DNA of 64,000 nucleotides from Terrimicrobiaceae bacterium (GCA_018402345.1 JAGYIV010000009.1:1-64000), one strand, 5' to 3'. Shown: positions 1 through 34,918, counted from the stretch's first letter. Numbers and translations: made by a program. The notes: generated by a model from the sequence alone, not told the origin.

Positions 1-1670
1 TTGTCCAAAAGGTAATTTATGATAGCCACACATTTAACAATGTTAGATGTAACTGGATGCTCAATTCCAAGCCATTTTTCATAAACCTCCAAGGCGCGAG
101 CAGCGAGTAACAGTGATTTTGCGTTGTCTGCCATGGACTGGTAAAGATTAGACAGATTGTAGAGGCAAACGCCTGTATTCAAATGATCTTTACCGAGCGA
201 TTTTTCAAAAATAACTAACGCGCGCTCGTAAAGCTGCAGTGCCTTTAAATTGTTTCCCATAGAGTTGTAAAGAGCAGCTAAATTGCTTAGGCTTACAGCC
301 GTGACGGGATTTTCAGGCCCATATTTTTGTTCCGAGATCGCCAAGACGCTCTCGAAAAGCGGCAGGGCTTTTTGGTAGTCTCCCATGGAGTTGTAAAGAG
401 CAGCCAGATTGTTAAAACTCTCAACAGTAGATTTATGCTCTTTCCCGAGGGTTTTTTTTCGAAGCTCCAAGGCTTGTTCCATTAGCGGTAGTGCCTTTTC
501 GAAGTCTCCGATTGATTGAAAACTCATAGCCATGTTGTTGAGGCTCATTGATGTATTTGGATGTTCTGGCCCAAGGACCTTTTTATTGATTACCATAGCG
601 CGGTCGAAGAGAGATAGGGCATTAGCGTAGTCACCCAACCGAAAGTAAATAGAGGCCAGATTGTTTAGGCTGCTGGCTGTGTCAGGATGCTCGGGCCCGA
701 GGACTTTTTCACGGATAGCTAACGCACGCTCATAAAGTTTCAGTGCCTTTGCATTGTCTCCCATGGATTTGCAATGAGAAGCTAGGTTGGTAAGGCTATT
801 TGCCGTCCTAGGATGGTGTGGGCCGAGGGCTTTTTCCTCGATCTCTAAAGCTCTTGCGTAAAGACGCATAGCCTTGTGGATGTCTCCCACATTGGAGTAA
901 AGATTTGCCAGATTTTTGAGGCTGCTGGCTGTATTTGGATGCATAGGGCCGAAGGTGTTTTCACGAATCGCCAAGGCGCGTTCAAGGAGCGGGATTGCTT
1001 TGTCGCTGTTGCCCATGGTATGGTAAACTTTTGCCAGACTGTTGAGGCTTGCTGCCGTATCGGGATGCTGCGGGCCGAGGGCTTTTTCCCGAATCGCCAA
1101 TGAGCGCTCGTGGAAACGCTTGGCCTGGGAGTAGTCGCCAATTTCTTCGTAAATAAGACCCAAATTATTGAGGCTTGTAGCCGTATTGGGATGCTGAGGA
1201 GTAAGGACTTTCTCCCAAATCGACAAGGCGCGTTCATAGAGCGGTAGGGCCTTGTCGTTGTCACCATTGTCGCGGTAGACATTTGCCAGATTGTTGAGGC
1301 TTGCTGCTGTATCGGGATGCTGGGGGCCAAGGGCTTTTTCTCGGATTGCCAAGGCGCGCTGATGGAGTGGAAGTGCTTTAATGTTGTTACCCATGGCGAA
1401 GTAAACAATGGCCAGATTGTTGAGACTTTGTGCCGTATCGGGATGCTGAGGATCGAGGTCTTTTTCTCGGATTGCCAAGGCGCGATTAAGTAGTGATATG
1501 GCCTCAAGCGATTTTCCTTGTTCATGAAGTGCACGCCCTTGGGCGGTTAATTCCTCTGCCTCTTCGGCGCTCTGGGCGAAAAGGGGGAGGGGAAGAAGAA
1601 GTAAGAAGTAAGAAGTGAGAAGGAGGAAAGCGAGGCGGGGAAAGCGAGGAATTGAAATTTGAAATAACAT
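1..1670 (-). CDS. Exported tetratricopeptide-repeat protein, 3' end outside window
   Basis: From the ATG at 1668-1670 the frame stays open for 556 codons to the window edge, so the C-terminus is missing. A long hydrophobic signal peptide ending near LPLFAQ is followed by kinesin-light-chain-type TPRs of about 42 residues, each with the pattern ALAIREKALG then HPDTAxSLNNLA. The same repeat type fills the TPR-CHAT protein at 16875-21056, so a CHAT protease domain could follow outside the window; that is inference. TPRs bind protein partners. The gene lies 52 bp after the metallopeptidase-like gene and is probably the last member of a minus-strand operon. The signal-peptide codons are a 7-bp repeat (see 1591-1630). 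Confidence 0.85.
   Translation of the reverse strand, partial: MLFQISIPRFPRLAFLLLTSYFLLLLPLPLFAQSAEEAEELTAQGRALHEQGKSLEAISLLNRALAIREKDLDPQHPDTAQSLNNLAIVYFAMGNNIKALPLHQRALAIREKALGPQHPDTAASLNNLANVYRDNGDNDKALPLYERALSIWEKVLTPQHPNTATSLNNLGLIYEEIGDYSQAKRFHERSLAIREKALGPQHPDTAASLNSLAKVYHTMGNSDKAIPLLERALAIRENTFGPMHPNTASSLKNLANLYSNVGDIHKAMRLYARALEIEEKALGPHHPRTANSLTNLASHCKSMGDNAKALKLYERALAIREKVLGPEHPDTASSLNNLASIYFRLGDYANALSLFDRAMVINKKVLGPEHPNTSMSLNNMAMSFQSIGDFEKALPLMEQALELRKKTLGKEHKSTVESFNNLAALYNSMGDYQKALPLFESVLAISEQKYGPENPVTAVSLSNLAALYNSMGNNLKALQLYERALVIFEKSLGKDHLNTGVCLYNLSNLYQSMADNAKSLLLAARALEVYEKWLGIEHPVTSNIVKCVAIINYLLD
1591..1630. repeat. CT/GA heptamer tract inside a signal-peptide coding region
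   Basis: On the plus strand the unit GAAGTAA recurs every 7 bp with small changes. The coding strand reads ACTTCTT units, which translate to TSYFLLL in any frame. It encodes the hydrophobic core of the signal peptide of the TPR protein. Confidence 0.8.
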
Positions 1671-2183: not shown

Positions 2184-5100
2184 CTATGGGGTTGATAAAC
2201 TAAAATCGCCTTCGAGGTTCACGCGGCGGACATTGGGAGTTTGTTTGTTGTTGGTGAGGGCGGCGACACGGGTTTTTACATAGTTGGCGAGTTCGCTCAT
2301 GGTGACGGAGCCGTCTTTGTTGGCGTCGGAGCCTTCCTTGCCGTCAAGGGCTTCGAGAACGGCGTAGGTGAAGAGGCCGTTCTTTTGCTCGCTGCTTTCG
2401 AGGGCGTATTCGGCTCCAGCGGAGGAACTCAGGATCGTGGACCCGCTGCCGCGACGGAGGTCCACGAAGAGGCCTTGGAGGCGGTCATACCACTCGCTTT
2501 TGCCGCGTGCGCCTTCGATGGGCTTGATGGTCATGCCGCGTGCTCCGGAGGGGAGCATGGCGACGACCTGGTTCGGGTTGGTCTGGGCGCTGGCGAGCAT
2601 TTTCTTCTCGTCCTCGTCGAGTTCTCCCGCGTGGCAGGTGTCGATGAGGAGGGATTTGCGCAGGCAGGGGAGTTCGGCCAGGAGGTCGTCAAATTCCTCG
2701 AAGGCGATTCCGTTGCCAGATGGATTGTCGAAGTCGATATCGGAGGTTCCGAAATAGTAATCGTATTTGCTGTCGAGGAGTCCGTGACCTGCGACGAACA
2801 TAAGAACGGTGTCGTCCACGGTGGCTTTGGAAAGGAAATCGCGGATTTTGCCGAGGCTTTCCTTGGTGGCCTCGCGGTCGGTGATGAGGAGTTGCTTGAT
2901 TTCGCCGTAGCTGGAGCCGGATCGCGCCTTGACGCGTTCGAGGATGTCTTGGGCATCCTTGGCGGCATATTTCAGGTTCCACTCAGGGTTGGCGTATCTC
3001 GAAACCCCACTGGCCCGGCGTCGAAGGGTGAAGGCCTGGGACGCTCGAAGGCGCCCTGCAAATGTTCCGCGGCACCTCAGCGTTGGCGTAGAGGGACTCG
3101 GCACCGGCGCTGTTGAGGACGGAGACTTGGATTTTATTGCGCCCGGCGGCGAGTTTGATCGGGATGGTGCGTTCGAGGGATTGGGATTTGGCGTCGCGCA
3201 GGAGTTCGCCCTCCTTGCCGTTGACGGGCACATTGTTCACATAGAGGCGAAGGCGATCGAGGGGGTATTTGCTGTCGGTGGCTTTGATCTTCAGGGCGAG
3301 TTCGCTCTCCGCCGTGGAGGATGGGAGATCGCCGACAATTTCGATTTCAGGCAGGTGGAAATCGGGTTGGAGCATGTCCTCGGTCACGCCCATGCGCTTG
3401 AGGCGCTTCTCGCGGAGTTGCTTGGCGATGGCAAGGGCTTCTTCTGGCGCTCCCAAGCGTTCCAGAACGATATCCGGGCGGTTTAGGCGAAGATCGAATT
3501 GTTCGAAGGGGAAGGTTTTTTTCCTGTCTGAAAAGTGGAGCCCCAAAGACCCTGAACCTTTCGAAGCGTAATAACCATCCGGCAATAGATATAAAGGGTG
3601 GCCATGGAGTTGTGGATACATTCTCAGTGTTTCACTAAGTTGACCCTTAGCATCCCAATTGACGCGACGGATGGAAAAGCCACTGGGATCCTGATACCAA
3701 AAATGATTTGCTTCAGAGCATAAAGCGATATTTTTTAATCTGCCATCAAGATTTCCAGTATGTAAAGTGCTACTTATTTTCTTGTTTATAGTATCGTAAA
3801 TGAGAATAAAATTGCTAGTGTGAATCAGATATCTTCCTGCCTCGATTGGGAATGCAGATTCTACATCGTCGTCAAAAAATAAGCGCGTTGAATTTACATT
3901 ATCTTCTTCAACCATAGTAACGATTGATGAAAAGGAATATTCACTATCCAAATTCCACGCTGTGAAATTTTTTACAGAGATTGAGTTTCTGATTTTCGAA
4001 TTTTTTACAAATAACTTGTCAGTGGGGTTGGATTGATGGTTGCTTGCAAATTTTATTTTTTCATCTTTTTCTATACTCCATTGTGAAGAAATTGATGCAA
4101 AATGGCTATTGGCGAAATCTATTGATACTTTATCGCCTATCGAAATCGAACCTTCACTATCCATCATATCAAAAGGACAAAACTCAGCTGAATTATTAGA
4201 TTCCACAATTATATTATTTGTGAGATCAAACAACAAAGCATTTGATAATGCTCTTCTTTCTAAAAGGCTGCTTCCGCTTCCAAAATGGGGTGTTTGTTTT
4301 CTTTTATTACTAACAATAAAAGCGGCCTTTCGCCCATCATTCCTAAGCATTGAAGACCATATAATGTAGTTAGCAATAGGAATGTCAGAATATGTAAACT
4401 CACTAAAATCTGCTAAAGCAGGCGGTAATCCCATCGCCTGTTTTTGACCGTTAAAGCTAAAGTTTTTCCAGTCAGATGCTAAATTTGATTTAACCCAGCT
4501 TTCATCTATGTTCCATAAGAGTAACTTTCTCCCATCCAATGAGGCTGTAATGCCATCTGCCTTTCGCGCTGATGGCGTGATGATCGTGCGATTTAACCAT
4601 CCTTTTGGTGTCGCTATCGAAACATTTTTTGGCGAATCATCTAACAAGATAATATGAGGCTTGCCTGAAAGCCAAAGCATTTTGTCAAGTGGGAATGTTG
4701 TTTGCCTAAATTTATAATGTCTGCCATTGTGATCACTACTTAATTTTTTTTCAGGTTTTGGTAATTGTAGAAAGTTAATCACCTCGCTCACAGCTTTATC
4801 ATTGTAGCTAGCGACCCATTCACCATTGATATATTCTAAAAAACAATTAATAGGCTTAAATCCCTCCCAAGCGTCGTTATAAAAATTAACTATTGCTAAA
4901 CGCCCATCATTGCTTTGCGAGAACATGCAAGTCATGTATCCATCGCACGCAGACATTCGTCACTTTGAATTTAATGTGTCCCATAGATACCAATTTACTG
5001 TTGCTTAGGTTTATTTTATATACTTCTCCATCAAGTTTTCCATTTTTGCTCAATGATAAAAATACTAAGCTATCATCGTGGGGTGAATAAGCTAAAGGAG

Positions 5101-6031
5101 TTCCCTTGGTTTTAAAATTTATTGGCTTTGTTTGTCCGGTTGATATATCTAAAATCTGAACTTGCTTGCTGTGCCTATTTATTTGGACAATCAATGTATC
5201 GGAACCATCTCTAAAGGAAATATCTGTGGCGATAGATTTAAATGAGCTTAAAAGTCGGCCGCTACCACTTTCATATATAAAAACATGTGTTCCTGTTTGG
5301 ACAGCAATAAGTCTCATGTTTTTCGAGACATCAACAGACCATATTCCGTTCGGTAATTCTTGGACTACAGGTTCTAGAGCTTTCCGCTCGTAACTGCCCT
5401 GAATGGAATTTAATTCATCCAAAGAAATATGTTTAAAATTACTTACGATCCAATCAAGTGCCGGCGGGTATTCTTTGGATTTCGCGTTAACAACATATTC
5501 ATCGCAAATTTCTTGATCTTTTGGTATTCCATGCCCCGCCTGTGCACACATCGCATAGTTGAACTGCGCTGGCGCAAACCCACTATCAGCAGCCACTTTA
5601 AATAGTCGGGCAGCGTCTTTTTTATTTTCCGGTAATACTTTGCCTTCGGCTAACATCTCTCCCAGAGCCGTAATGGCGTAGGGATTGCCCTGCATTTTAT
5701 TGAGCCCCGCGAAGGCTTTTTTCTGAAGTGCCAGACCTTGATCCTCGTTGCGTTCGATTCCCTCTCCAGCGCGGCTCAAGACACCGAGGCGGAAGATTCC
5801 CAATGGATGGCCCTTTCGTGCGCTTGAAGTGGCGTATTTGGCCGCCAATTCTAGATTCTTCTCTGTTTGCCATCCCACGGAGTAATGAAACGCTACCACG
5901 GCCTCGCCGTATGCGTTACCTTGGTCAGCCGTCTGCTTTGCTTCCTTGAATGTGAGAATTCTGTTGTCTTGGGCAAGGGCGATTCCGCTGGTCAGTATGA
6001 ATGCAAGAATTGATAGGAAGATATTCTTCAT
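2184..6031 (-). pseudogene. Sel1 / beta-propeller / caspase protein, copy B, with two frame breaks
   Basis: Paralogue of the gene at 6028-10107, whose stop overlaps this ATG by 4 bp (ATGA). Signal peptide (MKNIFLSILAFILTSGIALA), Sel1-like repeats to about residue 180, a WD/beta-propeller-like middle, an Ig-like stretch (NNVPVNGKEGEL), then a C14 caspase-like domain with the histidine in AGHG and the cysteine in DTCHAG. The frame breaks once near 4910-4955, by 1 nt. It breaks again at 2990-3075, where 77 nt replace 61 nt of copy A and the first caspase beta-strand (ALYAVAMGVSEY in copy A) is lost. The p10-like segment DLRRGSGSTILSSS is intact here but not in copy A. This is a decaying gene or contains assembly errors. 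Confidence 0.85.
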
Positions 6032-9000
6032 TTCTTGGAAAGGGCAAAGTCGCCTTCGAGGTTCACGCGGCGGACGTTGGGGGATTGTTTGTTGTTGGTG
6101 AGGGTGGCGACTCGGGTTTTTACATAGTTGGCGAGTTCGCTCATGGTGACGGAGCCGTCTTTGTTGGCGTCGGAGCCTTCCTTGCCGTCAAGGGCTTCGA
6201 GAACGGCGTAGGTGAAGAGGCCGTTCTTTTGCTCGCTGCTTTCGAGGGCGTATTCGGCTCCAGCGCGAAACTCAGGATCGTGGACCCGCTGCCGCGACGG
6301 AGGTCCGACGAAGAGGCCTTGGAGGCGGTCATACCACTCGCTTTTGCCGCGTGCGCCTTCGATGGGCTTGATGGTCATGCCGCGTGCTCCGGTAGGGAGC
6401 ATGGCGACGACTTGGTTCGAGTTGGCTTGGGCGCTGGCGAGCATTTTCTTCTCGTCCTCGTCGAGTTCGCCGGCGTGGCAGGTGTCGATGAGGAGGGATT
6501 TGCGCAGGCAGGGGAGTTCGGCCAGGAGGTCGTCAAATTCCTCGATGGCGATTCCGTTCGCGGAAGGATTGTCGAAGTCGATGTCGGTAGTGCCGAAATA
6601 GTAGTCGTATTTGCTATCGAGGAGCCCATGGCCAGCGACGAACAGGAGCACGGTGTCGTCCACGGTGGCTTTGGAAAGGAAATCGCGGATTTTGCCGAGG
6701 CTTTCCTTGGTGACTTCGCGGTCGGTGAGGAGGAGTTCCTTGATTTCGCCGTAGCTGGAGCCGGAGCGCGCCTTGACGCGTTCGAGGATGTCGCGGGCAT
6801 CCTTCGCGGCATATTTCAGGTTCCACTCGGGGTTGGCGTATTCTGAAACGCCCATAGCCACAGCGTAAAGCGCGGGCTTGGGACGCGGAGCGGTGCAAGT
6901 GACCTCTGCGTTGGCGTAGAGAGATTCGGCACCCGCGCTGTTCAGGACAGAGACTTGGATCTTGTTGCGCCCGGCGGCGAGTTTAATCGGGATGGTGCGT
7001 TCGAGAAATTGGGATTTGGAATCGCGCAGGAGTTCGCCCTCCTTGCCGTTCACGGGCACATTGTTCACATAGAGGCGGAGGCGATCGAGGGGGTATTTGC
7101 TGTCCGAGGCTTTGATTTTGAGGACGAGTTCACTCTCCACTGTTGAGGAGGGAATGTCGCCTACGATTTCGATTTCCGGCAGGTGGAAATCGGGTTGGAG
7201 CATGTCTTCGGTCACGCCCATGCGCTTGAGCCGCTTCTCGCGGAGTTGCTTGGCAATGGCAATGGCTTCGTCCGGTGCTCCCAAGCGTTCCAGCACGATG
7301 TCCGGGCGATTTAGGCGAAGGTCGAATTGTTCGAAGGGGTAGGTCTTGTGTCCATCGGAAAAATGTATGCTCGAAGACCAATTTTCACGGGAGGAATAAA
7401 AATAATCCTTCGTTAAAAATAAAGGCTGACTATTAAGCCTAGGGAATATTGTTCCTTCAAAAGAGATTTGTCCACTTTCTCTAAGATTAAAAAGTTTAAG
7501 TGTGCCATCAGCAGACCGCAAAAAAGCTCTTTGCCCATCAACAGCAACTGTTAGTTGTTGCTGAACCTCGCTCCAGGGCGCTCCGTAGGATGTATGTCTC
7601 TGTAAATTAATAACCTGCTCAATGTATTGATCTGAGATTGAAATGATGCGATTAATTCGCCAATTCCACATTGCTAAAATTTGGCCCATCTGAACGCAGA
7701 CCAGATTTTTGCCTATGGGAATAGCAACATCAACAACTCCCTGAACTACACAGTGAGAAGCCTGCTTTGTTTGAGAATCATAAGCGGAAATTCTAGTTGA
7801 TTTTGAATATAACTTGTCTGCTTTGCCTTCCCAAGGTTCCCATGATACTGTAATATTTGATAAAATGTTCTGATTGGTCCTTGCAAATTTGCCGGATTTG
7901 CGATGCCAACCATACAAGTTATTGAAAAGATATGGATGAATTTTTATAGTTGGTGGTAATGCATCTCCACTAATGATAAATCTATTATAATCAGATTGAA
8001 GATTGTTATCTTTGAGACCAATTGATGTTTGCTGAAGCCCTAGGTCTGGTCGCAGCCACGCCATGGTATAAGAAGTGTAAGGCCACACCCTTGAAGTAAG
8101 TAAGGTTTTGATATATGAGTCACTTTTACTAATATCATGCATTTCTATATCAACTTGTGTAGATGGAAATATAAAGCCGTCATGGGTGTCTTGCTTATTA
8201 TTTTTATTTGATGCTTTCAAATTACTTGCAGCCACAAAAAAGTTTTCTCCGCATGGCGAAATCACAGCATTCCAAATATGATTACCTGCTTTAGCAGAAT
8301 ACGCTCGCCCATCTAGTATTGATAAATCAAAAGATGTCACTGGTGCCGATCTGCTAAAAATCCAGAAATTCGCGCCTGTTTCCTGTTGGATTTTACCATC
8401 AAGGTCAAACATTTTAAACTGATTGTCGATGCCCCAAAAAATAATTTTGCTGCCATCTGATGAAGATGATACGCCATCGGCGAATGTCGCTGCAGGTTCG
8501 GCAATCTTGCCCTCGACGATTGAATTATTATCTAGAAACAGAGCCCAGTTGAAATAAGGGTTGTTGTTAATCAATTTACCAACACCGCCCCCCAGTGAAA
8601 TGCTTTTTCCTAAATCAAACTCTCGCCCGTTCAGATTGATTGCCACCTCTAAATCCTTAACAGTTGCAAACGAAGAAGGGATTCCAATAAAATCAATAAG
8701 TAGCTTGAATGATTTTGATGATACAGCCTCATCACCATGCCCATTGCGACTTCCATTTGCTAAAGTAATCCAAGGAACTAGAGATAGGTTTCCGTTTGAA
8801 ATAAAGATAAGGCTTTCCAAGCCCATGAAAACCTCTTCGTAGTATGACCATCTCGCAATCATGCAATCGCCCGTCCTATTAAAATATGCAGCAAAAGTTT
8901 CTGCTTCATGTATCTGTGAGTAGGAAAGCTCAGGCATAACATATGAGCCAACCAATTTTTTGTCATTTGCCCTGATGAAAAGCAAGTGTTCATTACCCTC

Positions 9001-10107
9001 CGATAGAATTGCAAGAGTGTCAGTATTCGAGTCGTAGCCAATAATCGATCCCTTTCCTGCCTGAATTTCAAATTCTTTCAAGGAGTTATCATTTATGTTC
9101 CACTCTAAAAGCACATCGGATTGCTCACTGTGAACTGAACCCAGAGTTGCCCAAACTTTATTAGAATCCTTTGCAAAAAAAGCCCTTAAAAATCTATTTT
9201 CATTTTTTAAAACGCTGTCTCCTACAACTGCTTCTGGAATACTTAATAATTTAGTTTTTAAGAGTCGGCCTGTTGGGACTTCGTATAAAAATAATTCATT
9301 CGATGAAACAATTACAACTTTTTTTAAATCATCTGAAAAATTAACCCAGCACACTTTATGGGGGTGCTGCTGAACAATCGGTTGTAATTTTTCCGCATCC
9401 ATATTTTGAACAGCTGAACCAACCATTTTTGCTAAATCAAAAACAACCAATTTAGAGTTCTTTTCAACTTGAATGCCTTTTGGTTCAAATTGTTCATTCT
9501 CTGGACCCCAGGCCTTAGTATTTAGAGTGCAAATTGCAAGGGGATAACCCTTTTCAAATGCCAGCATTAAATATTGATTTTTGACACTTTCGCTCTTTGG
9601 GTTCCATTGGCCATCTTGAGCACACCTCGCGTAGTTGAACTGCGCTGGCGCAAACCCACTATCAGCAGCCACTTTAAATAGTCGGACAGCATCTTTTTTA
9701 TTTTCCGGTAAGACTTTGCCCTCGGTTAACATCTCTCCCAGAGCCGTAATGGCGTAGGGATTGCCCTGCATTTTATTGAGCCCCGCGAAGGCTTTTTTCT
9801 GAAGTGCCAGACCTTGATCCTCGTTGCGTTCGATTCCCTCTCCAGCGCGGCTCAAGACACCGAGGCGGAAGATTCCCAACGGATGGCCCTTTCGTGCGCT
9901 TGAAGTGGCGTATTTGGCCGCCAATTCCAAGTTCTTCTCTGTTTGCCACCCTACGGAGTAATGAAACGCCACCACGGCCTCGCCGTATGCGTTACCTTGG
10001 TCGGCCATTTGCTTGGCTTCATTAAAATTGAGAACGCGATTGTCTTGGGCAAGAGCGTTTGTGCCCATCAATATGCTGGCTAGGATCGGTAGAAAGGCGC
10101 TTTTCAT
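6028..10107 (-). CDS. Exported Sel1 / beta-propeller / caspase-like (peptidase C14) protein, copy A
   Basis: 1359 residues from the ATG at 10105-10107, chosen because it begins a signal peptide (MKSAFLPILASILMGTNALA); the frame is open further upstream without one. Order: Sel1-like repeats (about 25-190), AT-rich beta-propeller-like region (about 200-900), Ig-like segment with PLDRLRLYVNNVPVNG, then caspase-like domain with His near 1157 (FVAGHG) and Cys near 1209 (LLIDTCHAGE). A perfect 12-residue EF-hand-type loop, DANKDGSVTMSE, lies near the C-terminus and would fit the calcium dependence known for metacaspases. At 6264-6308 about 16 codons read GPPSRQRVHDPEF where copy B has DLRRGSGSTILSS, because of two compensating indels. 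Probably a periplasmic or surface cysteine protease with a sensor-like middle; activity is uncertain. Confidence 0.85.
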   Translation of the reverse strand: MKSAFLPILASILMGTNALAQDNRVLNFNEAKQMADQGNAYGEAVVAFHYSVGWQTEKNLELAAKYATSSARKGHPLGIFRLGVLSRAGEGIERNEDQGLALQKKAFAGLNKMQGNPYAITALGEMLTEGKVLPENKKDAVRLFKVAADSGFAPAQFNYARCAQDGQWNPKSESVKNQYLMLAFEKGYPLAICTLNTKAWGPENEQFEPKGIQVEKNSKLVVFDLAKMVGSAVQNMDAEKLQPIVQQHPHKVCWVNFSDDLKKVVIVSSNELFLYEVPTGRLLKTKLLSIPEAVVGDSVLKNENRFLRAFFAKDSNKVWATLGSVHSEQSDVLLEWNINDNSLKEFEIQAGKGSIIGYDSNTDTLAILSEGNEHLLFIRANDKKLVGSYVMPELSYSQIHEAETFAAYFNRTGDCMIARWSYYEEVFMGLESLIFISNGNLSLVPWITLANGSRNGHGDEAVSSKSFKLLIDFIGIPSSFATVKDLEVAINLNGREFDLGKSISLGGGVGKLINNNPYFNWALFLDNNSIVEGKIAEPAATFADGVSSSSDGSKIIFWGIDNQFKMFDLDGKIQQETGANFWIFSRSAPVTSFDLSILDGRAYSAKAGNHIWNAVISPCGENFFVAASNLKASNKNNKQDTHDGFIFPSTQVDIEMHDISKSDSYIKTLLTSRVWPYTSYTMAWLRPDLGLQQTSIGLKDNNLQSDYNRFIISGDALPPTIKIHPYLFNNLYGWHRKSGKFARTNQNILSNITVSWEPWEGKADKLYSKSTRISAYDSQTKQASHCVVQGVVDVAIPIGKNLVCVQMGQILAMWNWRINRIISISDQYIEQVINLQRHTSYGAPWSEVQQQLTVAVDGQRAFLRSADGTLKLFNLRESGQISFEGTIFPRLNSQPLFLTKDYFYSSRENWSSSIHFSDGHKTYPFEQFDLRLNRPDIVLERLGAPDEAIAIAKQLREKRLKRMGVTEDMLQPDFHLPEIEIVGDIPSSTVESELVLKIKASDSKYPLDRLRLYVNNVPVNGKEGELLRDSKSQFLERTIPIKLAAGRNKIQVSVLNSAGAESLYANAEVTCTAPRPKPALYAVAMGVSEYANPEWNLKYAAKDARDILERVKARSGSSYGEIKELLLTDREVTKESLGKIRDFLSKATVDDTVLLFVAGHGLLDSKYDYYFGTTDIDFDNPSANGIAIEEFDDLLAELPCLRKSLLIDTCHAGELDEDEKKMLASAQANSNQVVAMLPTGARGMTIKPIEGARGKSEWYDRLQGLFVGPPSRQRVHDPEFRAGAEYALESSEQKNGLFTYAVLEALDGKEGSDANKDGSVTMSELANYVKTRVATLTNNKQSPNVRRVNLEGDFALSKK

Positions 10108-10225: not shown

Positions 10226-10597
10226 TCACCGCGAACTCGATCCCATGTAGGCACCGGTTTTGGCGTTGTAGCGGTTCACGCTGCGTTCGGTGGTGACGGC
10301 GATCACACCGCCGCTGACTTGAACCGCGCTGGGTTTGCCGCTGATCGAGATGGAGCCTTGGAACCCGCCGGTTTGGGCGTTGTAGCGCTGGACGGTGCCG
10401 TTGCCGAGAAGCACGGCGATCGTCTCGCCGTCGCACCCGACATCGAGGGCGTTGTTGACGGAGATCGAGCCTTTGTAGGAGCCGTTCGCAGCGTCGCGGC
10501 GTTCGATGGTGGAGGAGTTTTTGAGGACGGCGAGGATGCCATCGGCTTGGAGTGACATGGTAGAAAATAGCAGGGCGAGAAAGGTGGATCTTTTCAT
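10226..10597 (-). CDS. Small secreted beta-propeller-like protein
   Basis: 123 residues with a short signal peptide (MKRSTFLALLFSTMSLQA). The rest is three to four degenerate blades with the pattern VxRYNAxTGxYxGS, as in WD40/PQQ-type repeats (ERRDAANGSYKGS, QRYNAQTGGFQGS, NRYNAKTGAYMGS). Too few blades for a closed propeller, so it may be a fragment or may oligomerise. It ends 118 bp before the start of caspase copy A and may be transcribed with it. No catalytic residues are evident. Confidence 0.6.
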   Translation of the reverse strand: MKRSTFLALLFSTMSLQADGILAVLKNSSTIERRDAANGSYKGSISVNNALDVGCDGETIAVLLGNGTVQRYNAQTGGFQGSISISGKPSAVQVSGGVIAVTTERSVNRYNAKTGAYMGSSSR

Positions 10598-10600
10598 GGG

Positions 10601-11514: not shown

Positions 11515-11940
11515 TTATTCGGGAGGTGCCCACGGATTCAGAACATGGGCGGGGGAATCGATAAAATCCTTCGTATTTCGAGTTACCACCACAAGGTTGT
11601 GGATAAGAGCCGTTGCCAAAATCAGGGAATCGCGGAAGGGGCGAGTGCGCCCTGCGTTTAGCTCTGCGCATTTTTCGGCGATTTCTGGGGTCACGGGCAG
11701 AGTGCGCTTGGAAAATGTAAACCTCACTTTGGTGGCATACCAAGTCTGGAGGATTTCTCCGTGTTTCGGATCGCGGCGGCGTGCCAGTTCGATTCCAAGG
11801 CGGATTTCCATCAAGGAAATGACGCTCAAGTGGCACGCTTCCGTGGATTGAGCGGCTTGCCATGCTGCTACACGCGCATCGCATTTTGCTCCCCGCCGAA
11901 GTTCCGAAACGACATTTGTGTCCAGAAGGAAATCAGGCAT
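11515..11940 (-). CDS. vapC: PIN-domain toxin ribonuclease, VapC/FitB type
   Basis: 141 residues. N-terminal LLDTNVVSE carries the first metal-binding Asp; MEIRLGIE the conserved Glu; FRDSLILATA and VVTRNTKDF the last acidic residues, so the four-acid PIN site looks complete. Family proteins cleave RNA (often initiator tRNA or other structured RNA) and are held inactive by VapB. The start overlaps the antitoxin stop by 8 bp, the usual coupled layout. One of the intact toxins in this window. Confidence 0.9.
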   Translation of the reverse strand: MPDFLLDTNVVSELRRGAKCDARVAAWQAAQSTEACHLSVISLMEIRLGIELARRRDPKHGEILQTWYATKVRFTFSKRTLPVTPEIAEKCAELNAGRTRPFRDSLILATALIHNLVVVTRNTKDFIDSPAHVLNPWAPPE

Positions 11941-12172
11941 CGAGATTGGCGGGTTGCGGGAGGTCTTTCAGCTCCGGAATTTCGAGAGGAATTTCTCCCG
12001 CTGCATCGTCGCGGAGGAGGTCGAGAAGGGTTGTAGCCTCTGCTGCAGAGGCTTTCCGAACTTCCTTCCTGACTAAACCGGCGAGCCAACTTGAGAGGGA
12101 TTTGCCCTCGTCCACAGCCCGATGGCGTGCCTCCCGGCATAATTCGTCGTCCAGTGTGATCGTGACATTCAT
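11933..12172 (-). CDS. vapB: Ribbon-helix-helix antitoxin, VapB type
   Basis: 79 residues. MNVTITLDDELCREARHRA is a typical RHH DNA-binding N-terminus; the acidic, proline-rich C-terminus (EIPELKDLP) would wrap the PIN toxin encoded just downstream. It is expected to repress its own promoter together with VapC. Confidence 0.85.
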   Translation of the reverse strand: MNVTITLDDELCREARHRAVDEGKSLSSWLAGLVRKEVRKASAAEATTLLDLLRDDAAGEIPLEIPELKDLPQPANLDA

Positions 12173-12237
12173 CGTGTTTCAGTGTTTCACGAATTCACGA
12201 ACAATGCAACTATTGATTTCGCTGCAAGTCGCCGAAT

Positions 12238-13452
12238 TCAATCCCAAAACTGATACCACTTCTTTTCCTCAGGCTTGGCATCGCCTTGTGCGGCGACTCC
12301 GTTGGCATTAAAGGCGAGTAGGTTTTCGGTGGAGCGGTCGAGTTTTGCTCGGCCGCTGGTGGCTTTGGTGATTTCCTGGCCGAGGCCCATGTTGTCGAGG
12401 CGGGTTTCGACATCGAGGACGCTGATGCCTTGCGAGTCGAACTCGCGGGGCCAGACGGCGCTGATCTTTTCCGTGTCGGTGAAGTCGGTTTGGATTTTCT
12501 GGAAGTCCTCGGAGCTGATGCCGGAAAATTCGAGGCGCTTCATGGCACCGAGGTCGGTTTCGGTGACCCAGCGGGCGAGGATTTTGTTGAAGAGGGGCGG
12601 CGTGCCACCTTGCTGGCCTCCGGCGCTGCTGAGGACTTTTTGAATCACATCCCGCGCAGCCATTTCCTTGGAGTCGAGGTCGCTTTCGACATTCTCGGTG
12701 CCGGGCAATGCGGCGACCGCGACGACTTCGCCGGTCTCGGGGCGGATGGCGCGCAGTTCTCCGCCGACGGAGAAGACATGCTGGGGCAGGCTCCCGTAGA
12801 AGGATTGGCGGCCGACATAGCGGGCCACGATGTTGCCCTCAATCAAGAAGTCACTCTTCTGCGAGATTCCGGCGGAGCGGAGCTTGGCGTTCTTGTCGTT
12901 GCCGAGGATGGCATCGCGCGCAGCCATCTTGTTTTCCTGCGAACTCGCGGTTCCAACATCGACAAGGTTGAACTGCAACTCTCTCGCCGTCTGCTCCATG
13001 ATCCCCTGGGCGTATTTGGTCGGCGCGGGAGCGCCATCGATCTGCTCCTGCACATTGATCGACACGCGCGGCGAGCCTTTGAGAAGAACGATCTGACGCA
13101 GGGCGAGCGTGTTCTTGGCATCCGGCGCGCCTTTCTCCACCTCGGCTTTGACTTTCACCGTGTAGATTTGGTCTTTGCCTAACCCGGAACTGATCACCTT
13201 GTAGCTCTTCACATGCCCGAAGGCGGAGCTGAGGATGCGGTCGTATTCCAGGGTGAAATCGGAAACGCCGGTGGTGCTCAAGATATCGACTCCGGTGCCA
13301 ACGCGCACGGCTTCACGCAAGGCATCGGCGAGAGCTTGTTCTCTCGCGGTTTTCATGTCGCCGGGCGCTCGGCCCTCGGCTTCGACGGAGGCGGCGGGTG
13401 CTAAGTAAGAAGTCAGAAGGAGGAAGGATGAAGTGAGAATGAGTTTTTTCAT
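12238..13452 (-). CDS. Exported LPP20/FlgT-N-like protein
   Basis: 404 residues from the ATG at 13450-13452, which begins a signal peptide (MKKLILTSSFLLLTSYLAPA). After cleavage comes an LPP20/FlgT N-terminal-like stretch: a short strand, then KTAREQALADALREAVRVGTG, then a long helix-strand region. The middle (LVDVGTAS, FLIEGNIVARYVG, GELRAIRPETGEVV) resembles the curli-secretion/FlgT-type fold that builds outer-membrane-associated complexes. The C-terminus ends in KKWYQFWD. Two other proteins of this type lie at 29494-30525 and 50622-52103. The signal-peptide codons are the 7-bp repeat at 13403-13442. Confidence 0.7.
   Translation of the reverse strand: MKKLILTSSFLLLTSYLAPAASVEAEGRAPGDMKTAREQALADALREAVRVGTGVDILSTTGVSDFTLEYDRILSSAFGHVKSYKVISSGLGKDQIYTVKVKAEVEKGAPDAKNTLALRQIVLLKGSPRVSINVQEQIDGAPAPTKYAQGIMEQTARELQFNLVDVGTASSQENKMAARDAILGNDKNAKLRSAGISQKSDFLIEGNIVARYVGRQSFYGSLPQHVFSVGGELRAIRPETGEVVAVAALPGTENVESDLDSKEMAARDVIQKVLSSAGGQQGGTPPLFNKILARWVTETDLGAMKRLEFSGISSEDFQKIQTDFTDTEKISAVWPREFDSQGISVLDVETRLDNMGLGQEITKATSGRAKLDRSTENLLAFNANGVAAQGDAKPEEKKWYQFWD
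13403..13442. repeat. CT/GA heptamer tract inside a signal-peptide coding region
   Basis: Plus strand GAAGTCAGAAGGAGGAAGG followed by ATGAAGTGAGAATGAG; on the coding strand it reads CTCACTTCATCCTTC units and encodes LTSSFLLLTSY of the 12238-13452 protein. Confidence 0.8.
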
Positions 13453-13486
13453 GGGGTGGGTTTTGCGAGGGTTTTCCAAAGGCTGG

Positions 13487-14701
13487 CTATGGGCAGGGCG
13501 AGGAGTTTTCGCCAAAGGCGATCCGGTGCTGGCCGGTGTAGAGGATGATTCCATTCGTGAAATCTTTTCCAGCTAAGGTCGCCAAGGTTTCCAGCCCCCG
13601 CCAATCGCGAGCGCCGAGGTCCGAGGAGCATTTCACCTCAATGCCGGCGATTCGGCCATCCGGTGCCTCCAGCACAAAATCCACTTCGTTCCCCGCGACA
13701 TCGCGGAAATGGTGAATCGTCGGGCGAGTCCGGTTCCAGGAAATTTGCTTTACCAATTCCATCACCACAAAGTTTTCCATTAGCGCACCGGCGCGGTTGC
13801 GATCTTCCGCAAGCGCTTTTGTATCCACTCCCCTCAAGTGGCATGCCAGACCGGAGTCGTTCAGGTAGGTTTTTGGGGCTTTAATGAGGCGTTTCTCCAG
13901 GTTCCGATGCCAACCGAGAATCTCGATGTGGAGATACAAGCCCTGCAAGAGCGCGATATAGCGCTTGAGAGAACTGGCGGGGATGCCTGCCAGTCGCCCC
14001 ACCTCGGCGAAATTCTGCAAGCCGCCAACCCTCGCGGCCAGGATTCGTAAGAGACGCGGCAATTCGTGCAAGCCCTCTATGTTTGCCAAATCCCGAACAT
14101 CCCGCTCCAGCAGGGTCTTCAGATAGGATTCCCACCAAGCCCTGCGCCGATCCGCGTTGGCACGCTGAACAACTTCCGGATAGCCGCCTCGCTCCATACG
14201 CTCCAGCAAATCGCGCCACTCCACGCCATCCGTGGAAAATGCCTGCCTGGATCCGAAACACGCATCCACAAATCCCTCAGGAGTGCCTTCCATCTCTCCT
14301 TGCGAAAAAGGCCACAACACCTGCACCTCCATCCGCCCCGCGAGCGAATCCGCGATTTTCGGGAGGTTGAGGACATTCGCCGATCCCGTAAGGAGATAGC
14401 GCCCCGCCTGCCGCTCGGCATCCACTCGCTTCTTCATGGGTAAGAAAAGCTCCGGCGCACGTTGCACCTCATCGATTAGGCAATGCGCTCCGGCATCCTC
14501 CAAAAAAGCATCCGGCGCTCGCTTCGCCGCGTGCAAAGTCGCCGGATCGTCGAGAGTCAAAAACGGCATCGCCTGCCCGACTCCCGCCGCCAACTCTTTC
14601 GCCAGCGTGCTCTTACCCGTCTGCCTCGCCCCCGCCAGCAATACCACAGGCGTATCCGCCAACGCCGCACGACAGTTTGATAGAAGATTACGAATAATCA
14701 T
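13487..14701 (-). CDS. AAA_14 ATPase with C-terminal DUF4143 domain
   Basis: About 405 residues. Walker A is LLAGARQTGKSTLAKEL, Walker B CLIDEVQRAPELF, and YLLTGSANVLNL is the sensor region. The C-terminal DUF4143 part has HHFRDVAGNEVDFVLE then GIEVKCSS, resembling a restriction-endonuclease-like D-ExK core. Proteins of this family are common accessory genes of unclear role, often found with TA systems. The ATG at 14699-14701 is chosen over a TTG 36 bp upstream. Direct repeats of GATAATCA lie over the start. Confidence 0.85.
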   Translation of the reverse strand: MIIRNLLSNCRAALADTPVVLLAGARQTGKSTLAKELAAGVGQAMPFLTLDDPATLHAAKRAPDAFLEDAGAHCLIDEVQRAPELFLPMKKRVDAERQAGRYLLTGSANVLNLPKIADSLAGRMEVQVLWPFSQGEMEGTPEGFVDACFGSRQAFSTDGVEWRDLLERMERGGYPEVVQRANADRRRAWWESYLKTLLERDVRDLANIEGLHELPRLLRILAARVGGLQNFAEVGRLAGIPASSLKRYIALLQGLYLHIEILGWHRNLEKRLIKAPKTYLNDSGLACHLRGVDTKALAEDRNRAGALMENFVVMELVKQISWNRTRPTIHHFRDVAGNEVDFVLEAPDGRIAGIEVKCSSDLGARDWRGLETLATLAGKDFTNGIILYTGQHRIAFGENSSPCP

Positions 14702-16874: not shown

Positions 16875-19800
16875 CTAATTTATTATTTCATAAAGCTTTA
16901 ATTGAATTATTTCATAAAGACTTTGCTTTTCATCCGACACCCTCGGCAATGGCGGCAATGGCTTGCCTATTGTGGCCATTACGAAAGGGCCGGCATCGCG
17001 CACGGCTTCCAGAAGGCCCTTTTCTTTGCGAAGTTTGACGAGCCAGTCCCGTTGAACTTTGGCGAGTGAGCCCGGGGCGTTGCCTGTCTTGAGAGCCTCG
17101 CTGTAGAAGTCGGCCATGATTTCCGAGGTGGTATGGTCTGATACTGGCCAGAGGGTCATGAGGAGGTTTTCGGCCCCGGCCATCATAAAAGATCGGCGCA
17201 GTCCCAGCACTCCTTCGCCGGAGCGGGCCTCGCCTACGCCAGTCTCACACGCGGACAGGGCGACAAGCCAAGTGCCTTGCAGATCCAAGGCGGCAACTTC
17301 TTCCGCGGTGAGGATGCCATCGTTCTCGGGATCGGGGGCTTTGCGTTCGGCCCAAGAACGGAGAGTAGATTGGGCACCGGTTAGGGCAATGCCGCTTGCC
17401 CGCATTGGATCAACACCCTTTTTGTTCGTCGTGGAAGTTTCGACTCCGATTACGGACATGCCGCGAGTGCTTTCAATCGGCGGAGTGTAAGAATTGAGGT
17501 AAAATCCATGGGTGGCCAGATGCAGGATGCCGGGTTTGGATGTTCCGCGAATGTTTTTTTCGTCCGCCCGATCACGGGTGAAGGTTTCCAGATCCCACCC
17601 GCTATTGGCGGCGATTTTTTGGATTTCGGCGCACTCCTTTTCCGTGCCGGGCAAGGGAGGGAGTTGAATCTGGCCGAACACATCGACCTCCATACTTCGG
17701 AAAGCCAAGCGATTTTCCTCAACTGGTTCAGTTGCTTGGTCGAAAATCGGGTTGCCGAAAATACGAATGCGATTCGGTGGGTTTGGATTACTTTCCCGCA
17801 ACAAATCCCGGGCGTTCCCGACATAGGAAATGTCGTAGCTTTCGGCTAAAAATTTACCGTCCTCGCTGAGAAGAGCCGCAAAGGAGAGGAAGTTCAGGTC
17901 ACCATCAGGGCTGATAACCAATTGGTTGGTGCCTTCAGGAATCTTTTGAGCGATGGGCCGCCAGAGTTTTTCCGAGAGAAGCTCTGTTTCTTCTTTGACG
18001 CAAGCGGCATCGCCATTGGCGATTCCTTGGCGAAGAGATTCGATGGATTGGCGGATGACTTTGGCGCCATCGATACGAACAAATTCCAGATTGTTGTTTG
18101 CGGCCATGATGATTGCCCCGAGGCAATCCCATTCGTCCCCCTTGAGCTTGGGATCTTGAAATTGAAACAGGTCAATGAGCGCGCTGCCCTCGCCGAGCGT
18201 GGTGGTGATGTCCTCTTGTGTGATCGTGGCGCTCGCCCGTTGGAGATTCCGGCCCAGATACTTTGCGGCCATGTCCCTTTGAAGTTGGCTGATTTCCCCT
18301 TCAATGCGGGCAACTTCCTCTTCCTGACCGGGCTCAAATGCCAATTTGGATAGCCGAGCTTGGAGTTGGGTGATCTTTTTCAAGCTCTCCGAGCCGTCGC
18401 TGCTGCTCTGGGCCGCCAGTGCGATCGAGCGATCTTCGACCAAGGAATCCAGAACAACCCCTTTCATGCGAAGCACCATGTCCGTGATCGCATCCGGCTC
18501 CAAAAGACAGGCCAACCAAAATGATTGATTCACGCTCTGCCAGGAAAGTCTCGTGCCTTCATCTTGGGCGAGGATGGTTTGTAATTCGCTTTGCTTCGCT
18601 GTGATGTGCCGGTCGGCATGGAAGCGTGCCTCGGAGAGGCTTCCCATTTTGTATTTTAGATCAGCTAAGTTACCGAGGCACACGGCCGTTTGCGGATTCT
18701 TTGGCCCAAGGGCTTTTTCATTAATCGCCAACGCGCGTTCGTGAAGCGGCAGAGCCAGCGAGTAGTTGCCCATGGATTCGTAAAGTGACGCCAGATTATT
18801 TAGGTTTTGTGCTACATCAGGATGCTCAGGCCCGAGGGATTTTTCTAAAATCGCCAACGCTCGATCATAAATCGGCAGAGCAGTTGTGAAGTTTCCTTTG
18901 GAGCAATAATAACCTGCTAAATTGTGAAGACTGCGAGCCACATCTGGATGATCAGGTCCAAGGGCTTGTTCTTTAATCGCCAAGGCGCGCTCGTAGTGCG
19001 GTAGAACTTTGGAGTAGTCTCCCATAGATCCATAAAGCAAACCCAGATTATTAAGGCTTAAAGCGATATCAGGATGATTTGGACCGTGTGCTTTTTCCTT
19101 AATCGCCAAGGCGCGCTCAGACAGCGGCAAAGCCTTGGAGTAGTCTCCCATTGCTCGGTAAAGCTCGGCGAGATTGTTAAGACTCGATGCCATATCTGGA
19201 TGCTCAGGACCAAGGGCTTTTTCACGGATCGATAGGGCGCGTTCGTAAAACAGCAGGGCCTGAGTATAATCTCCCATGGATTGGTAAAAACCACCCAGAT
19301 TATTTAAGCTCATACCCGTATCTGGATGCTCAGGACCAAGTGCTTTTTCACGGATCAATAGAGCGCGTTCGTAAAACAGTTGCGCCTGAGTATAATCTCC
19401 CATGGCTTGGTAAAAACCAGCCAGATTATTTAAGCTTAAACCCGTATCTGGATGTTCAGGCCCAAGTGCTTTTTCTTTAATCGCCAGAGCGCGTTCCAAA
19501 AGCGGAAGTGCCTTGGTATAGTCTCCCATGGATTGATAAATATTAGCAATATTGTTGAGGCTTGCTGATAATATAGGATTTTCACTACCATATGTCTCTT
19601 CATGTATAGCTAATGCGCGATTATGAAATTGCATAGCTTTTGCGTATTCTCCCATGGTTGAGCAAACTACTGCGAGATTATTTAGACTGCCAGCAACATC
19701 GGGATGATCAGGTCCGAGTGCTTTTTCTGCAATCGTCAAGGCGCGTTCATGAAGCTGCTGACTCTTCAAGTAGTTACCCATGGCAAGATAGACTTGTGCC

Positions 19801-21056
19801 AAATTATTGAGGCTTGTTGCCGTCTTGGGACTGTCTGCACCTAAGGCTTTTTCATTGATCGCCAAGGCACGCTCTTGGAGTGGTAGTGCTTTTTTGTAAT
19901 CACCTGTTTTTGAATATATTTCCGCAACATTGTTGAGCCCCTGCGCCGTATCCGGGTGATCTGGTCCAAATGCTTTCTCTCTGATGAACGAAGCACGCTC
20001 GCAAAGTGACAAGGCTTTTCCGTAGTCTCCCATCTCACTGTGAAGCATTCCCAAATTGTTAACGCATGTTGCAGTATCAGGATGCTCAGCACCGAGGGCT
20101 TTTTGATAGATCGCCAGTGCGCGTTCTAAAAGCGCAAGGGCCTTAGTATAGTCTCCTATGGATTTATATAGCAACCCCAAACTATTAAGAGTTGATGCTG
20201 TATCGGGATGCTCATCCCTAAGGGCTTTTTCCCTAATTGCCAAAGCGCGATTGAAAAGAGGCAGGGCTTGGAGGTGGTCAGCCATTTCGCTGTAAAGTAT
20301 ACCCAAATTGTTAACGCATGTGGCCGTATCGGGATGATCATTCCCTCGAATTTTTTCATTTACCACGAGAGCCTGAAGAGCGAACGGCAAAGCTTTTGAA
20401 TAGTCGCCCATTGCAGTATAAAGATTTGACAAACTGGTGCATGCTACTGCTGCTTCCAGACTGCTTTTTCCATTCATCTTCTCTGCATTGGCTAAAATAA
20501 TTTCGCAAATTTCTGCAGATTTTGCATAGTTACCCGATGAGTGGTATGATGTCGCAAGAAAGTTCAATGCTGCTGTTGTCTTTTCGCTTTGTTTACCAGT
20601 TTTTTTAGTCTGAAAGCGGACCAAGCGCTCCAACACAGGAATTGCTTTGTCATGTTCCGAGCGCCCCATGTGCATTTGGCTCATTAACTCCAACGCAAAG
20701 GCTGTAGACTCGTGGGAATTCGATTCAAAAATATCCGCCGCCTTATTGCAAAACTCGATTCCAGCTTCTGGATCGCCTTCAAAAGAATTACAAATACCCA
20801 AATACAAATAAGATTTTGCCGTGGCTACATGTTTTTTCCCAAGCAATTTTTCCATTTTGGGAGTTGTCCGCTTGAATATTTCTAACGCCTCCTTGTGTTT
20901 GCCTGAAGTGATTAACTTTTCACCCTTCAACTCCTCAGTGACAACCTGTTCGATGGCTGCAGGAAGGGGTTGGGTGTTAGCCGCTTTAATCTGGAGCGAA
21001 AATGCCATGCTCAATATCACTGCTAAAAAAAGATAATTGATGCATGGTGTTTTCAT
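16875..21056 (-). CDS. Exported TPR-CHAT protein (caspase-HetF-associated-with-TPRs protease)
   Basis: 1393 residues. Signal peptide (MKTPCINYLFLAVILSMAFS), then about 17 kinesin-light-chain-type TPRs of 42 residues (residues about 45-830, with ALAIxEKALGPEHPDxAxSL), a linker, and a C-terminal CHAT domain. The CHAT catalytic pair is visible: His in HLATHGFY near residue 1177 and Cys in LSACETGVG near 1268, followed by the conserved LWPVSD. CHAT proteases are clan CD, related to caspases; some in defence systems cleave gasdermins or other partners, but no gasdermin is evident here. Export distinguishes this protein from cytosolic CHAT effectors. Upstream neighbour 21092-21715 and downstream nuclease-like gene are on the same strand with short spacing. 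Confidence 0.93.
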   Translation of the reverse strand: MKTPCINYLFLAVILSMAFSLQIKAANTQPLPAAIEQVVTEELKGEKLITSGKHKEALEIFKRTTPKMEKLLGKKHVATAKSYLYLGICNSFEGDPEAGIEFCNKAADIFESNSHESTAFALELMSQMHMGRSEHDKAIPVLERLVRFQTKKTGKQSEKTTAALNFLATSYHSSGNYAKSAEICEIILANAEKMNGKSSLEAAVACTSLSNLYTAMGDYSKALPFALQALVVNEKIRGNDHPDTATCVNNLGILYSEMADHLQALPLFNRALAIREKALRDEHPDTASTLNSLGLLYKSIGDYTKALALLERALAIYQKALGAEHPDTATCVNNLGMLHSEMGDYGKALSLCERASFIREKAFGPDHPDTAQGLNNVAEIYSKTGDYKKALPLQERALAINEKALGADSPKTATSLNNLAQVYLAMGNYLKSQQLHERALTIAEKALGPDHPDVAGSLNNLAVVCSTMGEYAKAMQFHNRALAIHEETYGSENPILSASLNNIANIYQSMGDYTKALPLLERALAIKEKALGPEHPDTGLSLNNLAGFYQAMGDYTQAQLFYERALLIREKALGPEHPDTGMSLNNLGGFYQSMGDYTQALLFYERALSIREKALGPEHPDMASSLNNLAELYRAMGDYSKALPLSERALAIKEKAHGPNHPDIALSLNNLGLLYGSMGDYSKVLPHYERALAIKEQALGPDHPDVARSLHNLAGYYCSKGNFTTALPIYDRALAILEKSLGPEHPDVAQNLNNLASLYESMGNYSLALPLHERALAINEKALGPKNPQTAVCLGNLADLKYKMGSLSEARFHADRHITAKQSELQTILAQDEGTRLSWQSVNQSFWLACLLEPDAITDMVLRMKGVVLDSLVEDRSIALAAQSSSDGSESLKKITQLQARLSKLAFEPGQEEEVARIEGEISQLQRDMAAKYLGRNLQRASATITQEDITTTLGEGSALIDLFQFQDPKLKGDEWDCLGAIIMAANNNLEFVRIDGAKVIRQSIESLRQGIANGDAACVKEETELLSEKLWRPIAQKIPEGTNQLVISPDGDLNFLSFAALLSEDGKFLAESYDISYVGNARDLLRESNPNPPNRIRIFGNPIFDQATEPVEENRLAFRSMEVDVFGQIQLPPLPGTEKECAEIQKIAANSGWDLETFTRDRADEKNIRGTSKPGILHLATHGFYLNSYTPPIESTRGMSVIGVETSTTNKKGVDPMRASGIALTGAQSTLRSWAERKAPDPENDGILTAEEVAALDLQGTWLVALSACETGVGEARSGEGVLGLRRSFMMAGAENLLMTLWPVSDHTTSEIMADFYSEALKTGNAPGSLAKVQRDWLVKLRKEKGLLEAVRDAGPFVMATIGKPLPPLPRVSDEKQSLYEIIQLKLYEIIN

Positions 21057-29464: not shown

Positions 29465-29497
29465 TTCATCCTTCATCCTTCTAATTTCCTACTTCAC
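29465..29497. repeat. CT heptamer tract at 3' end of the LPP20-like gene
   Basis: TTCATCCTTCATCCTTCTAA then TTTCCTACTTCACTG, reversed with respect to the signal-peptide tracts. Confidence 0.75.
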
Positions 29498-30525: not shown

Positions 30526-30716
30526 GGCGGGCACAGGTTATGGTTGGCTGGAGTGGGCGTAAATCCGCTTTTCAATGGGCGGATGAATTCGGAGGTTGAA
30601 CGGCGAAAACGCGGCGGTGAACGGTTTTTTTGAACATGCGAAATTCGACAGGCGGGAGGGGAAATTCGGAATGGGAGTTGCCAGAGATGCTTTGTGCCGA
30701 CTAGTTGATCGATCAA

Positions 30717-34210: not shown

Positions 34211-34918
34211 ATGAATGTTCTCATTCTCGACGACGAGCCGCCAGCCCGGCGGAGCCTCAAACATGCGCTGGCGGATATTGGTGTCACTGATGTGCGCGAG
34301 GCGGGTTCTATCGAACAAGCCGTGAAGGCGCTCACTGAGCAACGCCCGGATGTGATGTTTCTGGATGTCGAGCTCCGCGGAGGGAAACAGGGATTCGATC
34401 TTCTGGAGACGCTACCCGCCGAGGGGATCCCTGTGATCTTTGTCACGGCACATCCCGAACATGCCGTTCGCGCCTTTGAGACGCAGGCTGTGGATTATCT
34501 GCTCAAGCCCGTCGATCAGCATCGGCTCAAGGAAAGCCTCAAGCGGATCGGTGAGTCCAGTGACGCGGAAGAGGTCAGAGTTTTCCTCAAACACGAAACC
34601 GCGATGTTCCGCGACGGGACGAGGAATGTGCTCCTGAGGGTGGGGGATATTCATCTGCTGGAGGCTGGGGATTCCTACACGAAGCTGGTTCTCGCCGATA
34701 AAAGCGGCCCTATGGTCAATGGGACTCTCAAGAGTGTGCTGTGCCGGATTGATCCTGAGGTGTTCTTCCAAGCGAACCGCACGCAGGCGATGAATCTGGA
34801 ATATGTCACCCAAGTGGAAGACGGGGAGAGTGGGCTAGTGGCGGTTCTCGCAAACGGGATTCGGGTGGAACTCTCGCGACGCCAGAGCTCGGAATTTCGA
34901 CGCGTCAAGGCGATCTGA
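34211..34918 (+). CDS. LytTR-family response regulator
   Basis: 235 residues. Receiver domain with acidic pocket DDE (LILDDEPPARR), phospho-acceptor Asp in VMFLDVELRGG, and Thr/Lys in FVTAHPEHA and YLLKPVD. The C-terminal LytTR DNA-binding domain holds LLRVGDIHLLEAGDSYTKL and FFQANRTQAMNLEYV. Cognate to the MASE1-LytS kinase by type. Its last codons (EFRRVKAI) and stop are inside the 270-bp direct repeat copied to 36001. Confidence 0.93.
   Translation: MNVLILDDEPPARRSLKHALADIGVTDVREAGSIEQAVKALTEQRPDVMFLDVELRGGKQGFDLLETLPAEGIPVIFVTAHPEHAVRAFETQAVDYLLKPVDQHRLKESLKRIGESSDAEEVRVFLKHETAMFRDGTRNVLLRVGDIHLLEAGDSYTKLVLADKSGPMVNGTLKSVLCRIDPEVFFQANRTQAMNLEYVTQVEDGESGLVAVLANGIRVELSRRQSSEFRRVKAI

Follow-up and report, generated by a model that had tools for sequence, protein, structure and literature searches.

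In prokaryotes, the commonest partners of caspase homologues are WD40, TPR and Sel1 modules (Asplund-Samuelsson 2012, PMC3501461). Here we describe two tandem caspase genes from a Terrimicrobiaceae bacterium, located within the first 64,000 nucleotides of contig C3, one of the 17 contigs that make up a genome of 3.1 Mb (GCA_018402345.1, JAGYIV010000009.1:1-64000; this whole stretch is hereafter called the window), whose two ends have probably been kept alike by gene conversion around a strongly diverged middle. Their domain architecture is already known. They resemble the metacaspases and orthocaspases of PMC3501461 in their C14 His-Cys dyad and in their fusion to Sel1 and presumed propeller modules, but differ by having a signal peptide, a C-terminal caspase, an Ig-like linker, and constant ends with divergent middles in tandem; we found no mention of Verrucomicrobia in the text of that study. 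A constant caspase module with strongly varying partner domains is also seen in EACC1-caspase conflict systems (Kaur et al. 2020, PMC7159879), although there the caspase is N-terminal, the variable part is C-terminal and the gene is paired with another core gene. The two window caspases are C-terminal and do not share this domain order. Fungal NWD genes het-d and het-e (Paoletti 2007, PMC1805685) share a WD-repeat recognition part, concerted evolution and inactivated members, but in these genes it is the WD repeats that are homogenised, whereas in the window copies the presumed propeller diverges and the effector appears homogenised. The gingipains of Porphyromonas gingivalis (PMC5266723) are surface proteases in which a caspase-like fold is followed by an Ig-like fold, and they diversify by allelic exchange and domain rearrangement. 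They differ from the window copies in peptidase family and domain order. Gingipains are peptidases of family C25. In the open-access literature, we found no account of bacterial caspases in which recombination maintains a constant effector alongside divergent sensors.

Both genes are on the minus strand. Copy 2 (10107-6028) is a single open frame encoding 1359 amino acids from the ATG at 10107, and its stop codon overlaps the ATG of copy 1 (6031-2184) in the tetranucleotide ATGA. Each gene consists of a constant 5' block encoding a signal peptide, predicted by eye, and a Sel1 repeat (9594-10107 in copy 2, with Sel1 at residues 117-151; 5517-6031 in copy 1), a variable AT-rich middle (7380-9593 in copy 2, about 740 codons whose position and motif are propeller-like; 3552-5516 in copy 1) and a constant 3' block. 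In copy 2, this last block encodes linker helices (EQFDLRLNRPD...) and an Ig-like domain (6868-7379), placed by alignment and by the helices and strands of an AlphaFold2 model, followed by the Peptidase_C14 caspase (6028-6867, residues 1081-1354); in copy 1, it spans 2184-3551, with the caspase at about 2202-3002. PF00656 (Peptidase_C14) is found in both copies, with 47.6 bits in copy 1 and 40 bits in copy 2 against a Pfam curated cut-off of 21.4, and the alignment places the catalytic His-Cys dyad in AGHG and DTCHAG in each. Sel1 (PF08238) scores 34.0 and 48.2 bits in the two copies (cut-off 30.7). However, these are not two intact genes. Copy 1 is split over three frames (4907-6031, 2983-4956 and 2184-3233) by two frameshifts, one at about 4907-4956, where two frames overlap, and one at about 2990-3080, where the sequence around the Ig/caspase junction is locally scrambled and identity falls to 0.53-0.63 inside the block. 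In the caspase of copy 2, alignment with copy 1 reveals two frameshifts that compensate each other (6267-6307), +1 near 6307 and -1 near 6267; they lie within about 280 bp that are otherwise nearly identical, scramble about 13 residues and eliminate a strand motif, DLRRGSGSTILSSS, that is kept in copy 1 and in all the aligned relatives that cover this region. Proteolytic activity of either copy is uncertain because of these frame lesions.

The contrast between ends and middles is sharp. By blastn, the two copies share only two blocks, a 5' block (5517-6020 and 9594-10096; 505 columns, 89.9% identity) and a 3' block (2202-3551 and 6046-7379; 1352 columns, 90.0% identity), with no DNA-level match between them. 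Identity in 15-bp bins drops from at least 0.87 to at most 0.47 within about 30 bp at the 5' inner edge (5560-5530 in copy 1) and from 0.93 at 3515 to 0.53 at 3530 at the 3' inner edge. Maximum-likelihood change points in GC content, placed in each copy alone without use of the alignment, fall at 5531 and 3481 in copy 1 and at 9582 and 7357 in copy 2, no more than about 50 bp from the points where identity drops. The first-pass annotation, which had pointed out constant ends around a divergent middle and had asked whether identity declines sharply or smoothly, is borne out on both counts; its further description of AT-rich middles between GC-rich ends applies to the 3' end but less to the 5' end. 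In copy 2, the GC content at third codon positions (GC3) is 0.56 in the N-terminal block, 0.32 in the middle and 0.73 in the C-terminal block; it is about 0.31 in the copy 1 middle, and 0.48-0.79 in most long open reading frames elsewhere in the window. Overall GC content is lower in the 5' block (52%) than in the 3' block (58%). Codon composition of the 3' block is like that of many neighbouring genes, while the 5' block is intermediate and the middles deviate. GC-biased conversion is not supported as the source of the GC-rich ends, since it is the middles that deviate, and the 3' end matches neighbouring genes. A sharp edge also coincides with a domain boundary and is by itself no proof of recombination; the same edge occurs in a single-copy locus on the contig of an Akkermansiaceae metagenome-assembled genome (MAG), L110, which makes it weaker evidence than the first-pass annotation supposed.

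Synonymous sites are more telling. Divergence at these sites (dS) between the copies is 0.94 over codons 1-45, then 0.14, and 0.50 over codons 126-172 of the 5' block, with a value of 0.02 in one 60-codon Sel1 window; it is apparently saturated in the middle, and after the middle it declines through 1.09, 0.57 and 0.31 (0.31-0.57 in the linker/Ig part) to 0.13-0.47, about 0.28, in the caspase. It thus rises towards the non-homologous edges and falls away from them, as expected for conversion tracts, which need flanking homology. Each block contains a 153-bp run of identity, a length reached in none of 5000 permutations of the differences. In comparisons with relatives, the codons of these runs show synonymous differences (pS) of 0.44-1.04, which argues that no synonymous constraint lies behind them. 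Because the synonymous sites are themselves mosaic, plain divergence after duplication, with selection at the protein level alone, is insufficient; conversion of the ends or replacement of the middle would produce such a pattern. The pair shows both features by which gene conversion is recognised, dS heterogeneity within the gene and identical tracts beyond chance, and the proposal that the ends were homogenised by recombination has held up. In the tree, copy 1 and copy 2 cluster together (99/97), close relatives being absent from the genus.

Tandem arrays whose 3' end is constant are also present elsewhere in the Verrucomicrobiota. In a search of 213 genomes of the order (labelled G; loci or contigs are labelled L), close relatives came from families f6 and f13, while 14 congeners gave only one weak, caspase-only match (G011, 28% identity). 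A block related to that of G201 is present in four named MAG contigs, from uncultured Spartobacteria and one Akkermansiaceae MAG; a scan of genome contigs with the whole copy 2 protein found no named relative. There are four copies in G201, three in G208 and two in G063, and more arrays in G258, G297, G300 and G249. Copies A, C and D of G201 have in common a 1335-bp 3' block at 85-87% identity, whose edge coincides with the edge in the window copies, and their upstream parts hardly match. The A-D pair contains a 113-bp identical run (0/2000 permutations); there is none in G201-G208A pairs. In G492, relationships conflict between middle and caspase, as recombination would have it: in the middle, copy 2 is near copy 1 (43-72% amino acid identity) and only about 20-34% identical to copy 3, whereas in one stretch of the caspase it is near copy 3 (96% amino acid identity, dS 0.50) and unlike copy 1 (65%, saturated). 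In the syntenic pair G201B/G208C, the middle is saturated, and the 180 codons around the junction have a dS of 0.10-0.19. In L110, the constant block is 80% identical at the amino acid level and has the same neighbours. G063B groups with copies of another family, which G063A does not. Broken copies are common, as exemplified by an internal stop in G201A, a frameshift in G063B and a remnant in G208B; G201D, of 1156 amino acids, is intact. The G063A caspase (L068:3082-3222, minus strand) ends in a tail, EKSFFGRLFGR, that is like the tail of its FlgT_N-like neighbour, EKSILQRLLGR, which suggests fusion or exchange between neighbouring genes. In G201C (L066:1776-2429, plus strand), the caspase is followed by a Sel1-like region that shares about 40% identity with the copy 1 Sel1 part, so this module is found at either end of the protein.

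What the middles are is less clear-cut. They had been called unrelated, and although they are hardly alike, BLASTP finds 29% identity over 49 amino acids at their start (E value 4e-7) and 36% over 56 amino acids at their end, and one blade-like motif common to both is visible by eye, the remainder having no convincing alignment. They are best called strongly diverged homologues. Neither the copy 2 middle nor the 3' part of the copy 1 middle (3592-4956) has a relative among the 213 genomes, unlike the Ig-caspase block, which has close full-length matches in the two families named above. A propeller-like fold, as first proposed, is supported in relatives, with no direct support in the window copies, whose middles have no Pfam match. 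At the same position, PQQ_2 is found in G201A (1.3e-6) and WD40 in G297 (3e-7). An AlphaFold2 model of a relative, L106, built from 12 sequences with a mean predicted local distance difference test score (pLDDT) of 72.9, has many short strands in succession, then helices, an Ig-like strand set and the caspase, and its residues 325-680 match beta-propellers, including the WD40 domain of Apaf-1, with Z scores of about 18-20. Domain matches and the model thus support a beta-propeller middle upstream of the Ig-like and caspase parts in relatives, and by extension the copy 1 and copy 2 middles are presumably propellers as well. A search of PDB sequences with the constant block found no match. Directly upstream of copy 2, the minus-strand stretch 10229-10600 encodes a small protein that looks exported and carries blade-like repeats (GETIAVLLGNGTVQRYNAQTG...), perhaps a propeller fragment on its own or what is left of a sensor.

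We consider it likely, with a probability of roughly 0.7, that the ends have been homogenised by gene conversion among tandem copies while the middles diverged or were exchanged. Several points weigh against this reading or limit it. The dS of the middle comes from alignments with 20-35% identity, and all it shows is apparent saturation; a codon-identity test confined to the well-aligned positions there covered 11 sites and gave p 0.08. Where the copies are nearly alike, the identical runs could have been lengthened by consensus errors. Two sequences are too few to give the direction, and copied ends and replaced middles both fit them. No GC step is seen in G063A, G062A, G258, G297, G300 and G249, hence AT-rich middles are not a family rule. 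Constant blocks of G201 do not cluster by genome in the tree (about 86% identity within G201, and likewise between G201 and G208), from which it follows that ongoing homogenisation is weaker there than in the window. Finally, the AlphaFold2 model of copy 2 residues 170-1359 (mean pLDDT 40) has no interpretable fold over the middle, where pLDDT is about 25. The strongest competing explanation, possible but less probable than conversion of the ends and able to act alongside it, is cassette exchange, in which one copy gained a different middle from another copy or another strain, with the conserved ends as crossover arms. It would account for middles that have no relatives in the order when the caspase end has them, and for their composition, which is unlike that of the ends and most neighbours; movement of the constant block between lineages, as in L110 and G063B, also speaks for it. 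However, each middle has its best match in the other, through both end segments and the blade motif, which points to a single ancestral sensor and not to two imports, and exchange leaves unexplained a dS of 0.02 beside 0.94 within the 5' block.

An ordinary duplication with no recombination, in which strong purifying selection held Sel1 and caspase while the sensor evolved very fast, would fit edges that fall on domain boundaries and recur in other pairs, and middles that diverge past recognition even between species. We find it improbable, because synonymous sites differ as much as the protein does, from about 0.3 at the 3' end to saturation in the middle and from 0.02 to 0.94 in the 5' block, and because identical tracts exceed chance where comparison with relatives reveals no strong synonymous constraint. 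The same saturation bears on the suggestion in the first-pass annotation that the middle is swapped or fast-evolving: rapid change of the protein after a recent duplication would not be enough, and old divergence retained in place and import of a different middle are both possible. Errors of assembly or consensus deserve slightly more weight, yet are unlikely too. The contig is probably metagenome-derived, near-identical tandem copies are difficult to polish, and frameshifts affect both copies, one of them in an otherwise near-identical stretch, all of which could make identical runs and frameshifts mere errors in a tandem repeat; but most of both blocks differ by 10% and were hence resolved, the other long genes of the window are intact, and similar arrays with broken copies occur in other assemblies. 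Caspase-domain proteins are targets of diversity-generating retroelements in cyanobacteria (PMC7517822), but such an element acting on the middle was rejected as very improbable: the reverse transcriptase is not near the target, the sole RVT_1 match of the genome being on contig C4 and the window on C3, and the divergence spans about 700 codons with indels rather than a short adenine-directed patch.

The surroundings of the pair are partly conserved as well. An FlgT_N-like exported protein (12238-13554, minus strand; Pfam FlgT_N) has homologues at 49-54% identity beside caspases in G063, G062, G201 and G208. Farther on, all on the minus strand, are a TPR-CHAT protein (16875-21056; Pfam TPR and CHAT), with homologues in the G062 and G208 loci; the third and last caspase that Pfam finds in the genome, fused to an FGE-sulfatase-like domain (22292-24634; Pfam); a DUF4384/CsgG-like protein (27315-28433), 46-53% identical in G063, G201 and G492; and a conserved protein with no Pfam match (29494-30534), 49-53% identical in G201 and G063. 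CHAT is another caspase-fold peptidase family. A MASE1 histidine kinase (30705-32225) and a LytTR response regulator (34211-34918), both on the plus strand, are conserved in the G201 locus. L110 appears to be flanked by homologues of the FlgT_N-like and CsgG/DUF4384 proteins, recognised by DNA match, and of the protein without Pfam match, recognised by its position and sequence start. The predicted signal peptides and this neighbourhood point to an envelope-associated function. PADLOC matches were limited to a generic caspase model, TPR models and, for a neighbouring ATPase, a PDC-S01 model; these were not accepted as evidence of defence. Between the caspases and the FlgT_N-like gene, we noted by eye, from the translation, a VapB-like and PIN/VapC-like toxin-antitoxin pair (11518-12178, minus strand). 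A second TPR gene (3-1670, minus strand) resembles the TPR-CHAT protein but has its 3' end cut off by the contig start. The third caspase gene contains an internal 270-bp repeat (22796-23065 and 23531-23800, 90% identical), and two other repeats lie beyond, one at 34892-35161 and 36001-36270 (98% identical) and a direct repeat of about 959 bp at 37494-38452 and 39622-40576 (97% identical).

In our reading, both tandem genes come from a family of apparently exported sensor-caspases made of a signal peptide, a small N-terminal module (Sel1 in the window copies, LprI-like in relatives), a divergent propeller-like sensor, a conserved linker with its Ig-like domain and a C14 caspase. Recombination in tandem arrays would repeatedly copy the homologous ends from gene to gene and would be blocked in the middle, where homology is too low. 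Because conversion could not pass the middle, the effector end and the N-terminal module would evolve in concert, while the propellers diverge or are swapped as cassettes, and the likely outcome is several proteases that share one output but respond to different triggers. In such a protein, the propeller would bind a ligand or partner, the Ig-like linker would transmit this event and the caspase would cleave; that the sensor activates the protease is a tentative proposal. The role might be defence or regulated death at the envelope, although a function against phages or competitors specifically is doubtful. A bolder and equally doubtful extension is that tandem exported-caspase arrays in Verrucomicrobiota form a recombining repertoire, in which decayed and active copies serve as donors, homologous ends permit exchange and diversifying selection drives the renewal of propellers; such arrays would be a bacterial analogue of variable receptors in immunity or allorecognition, coupled to a death effector that stays constant.

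If our interpretation is correct, these bacterial caspase genes hold the protease constant and vary only the sensor, with homologous recombination as the means of upkeep. Trees of the caspase part would then say little about the history of whole genes, and comparing the sensors across strains at one locus would offer a direct route to what bacterial caspases respond to. The pattern, which recurs in related bacteria, looks like that of keeping one protease tool while varying its switch.

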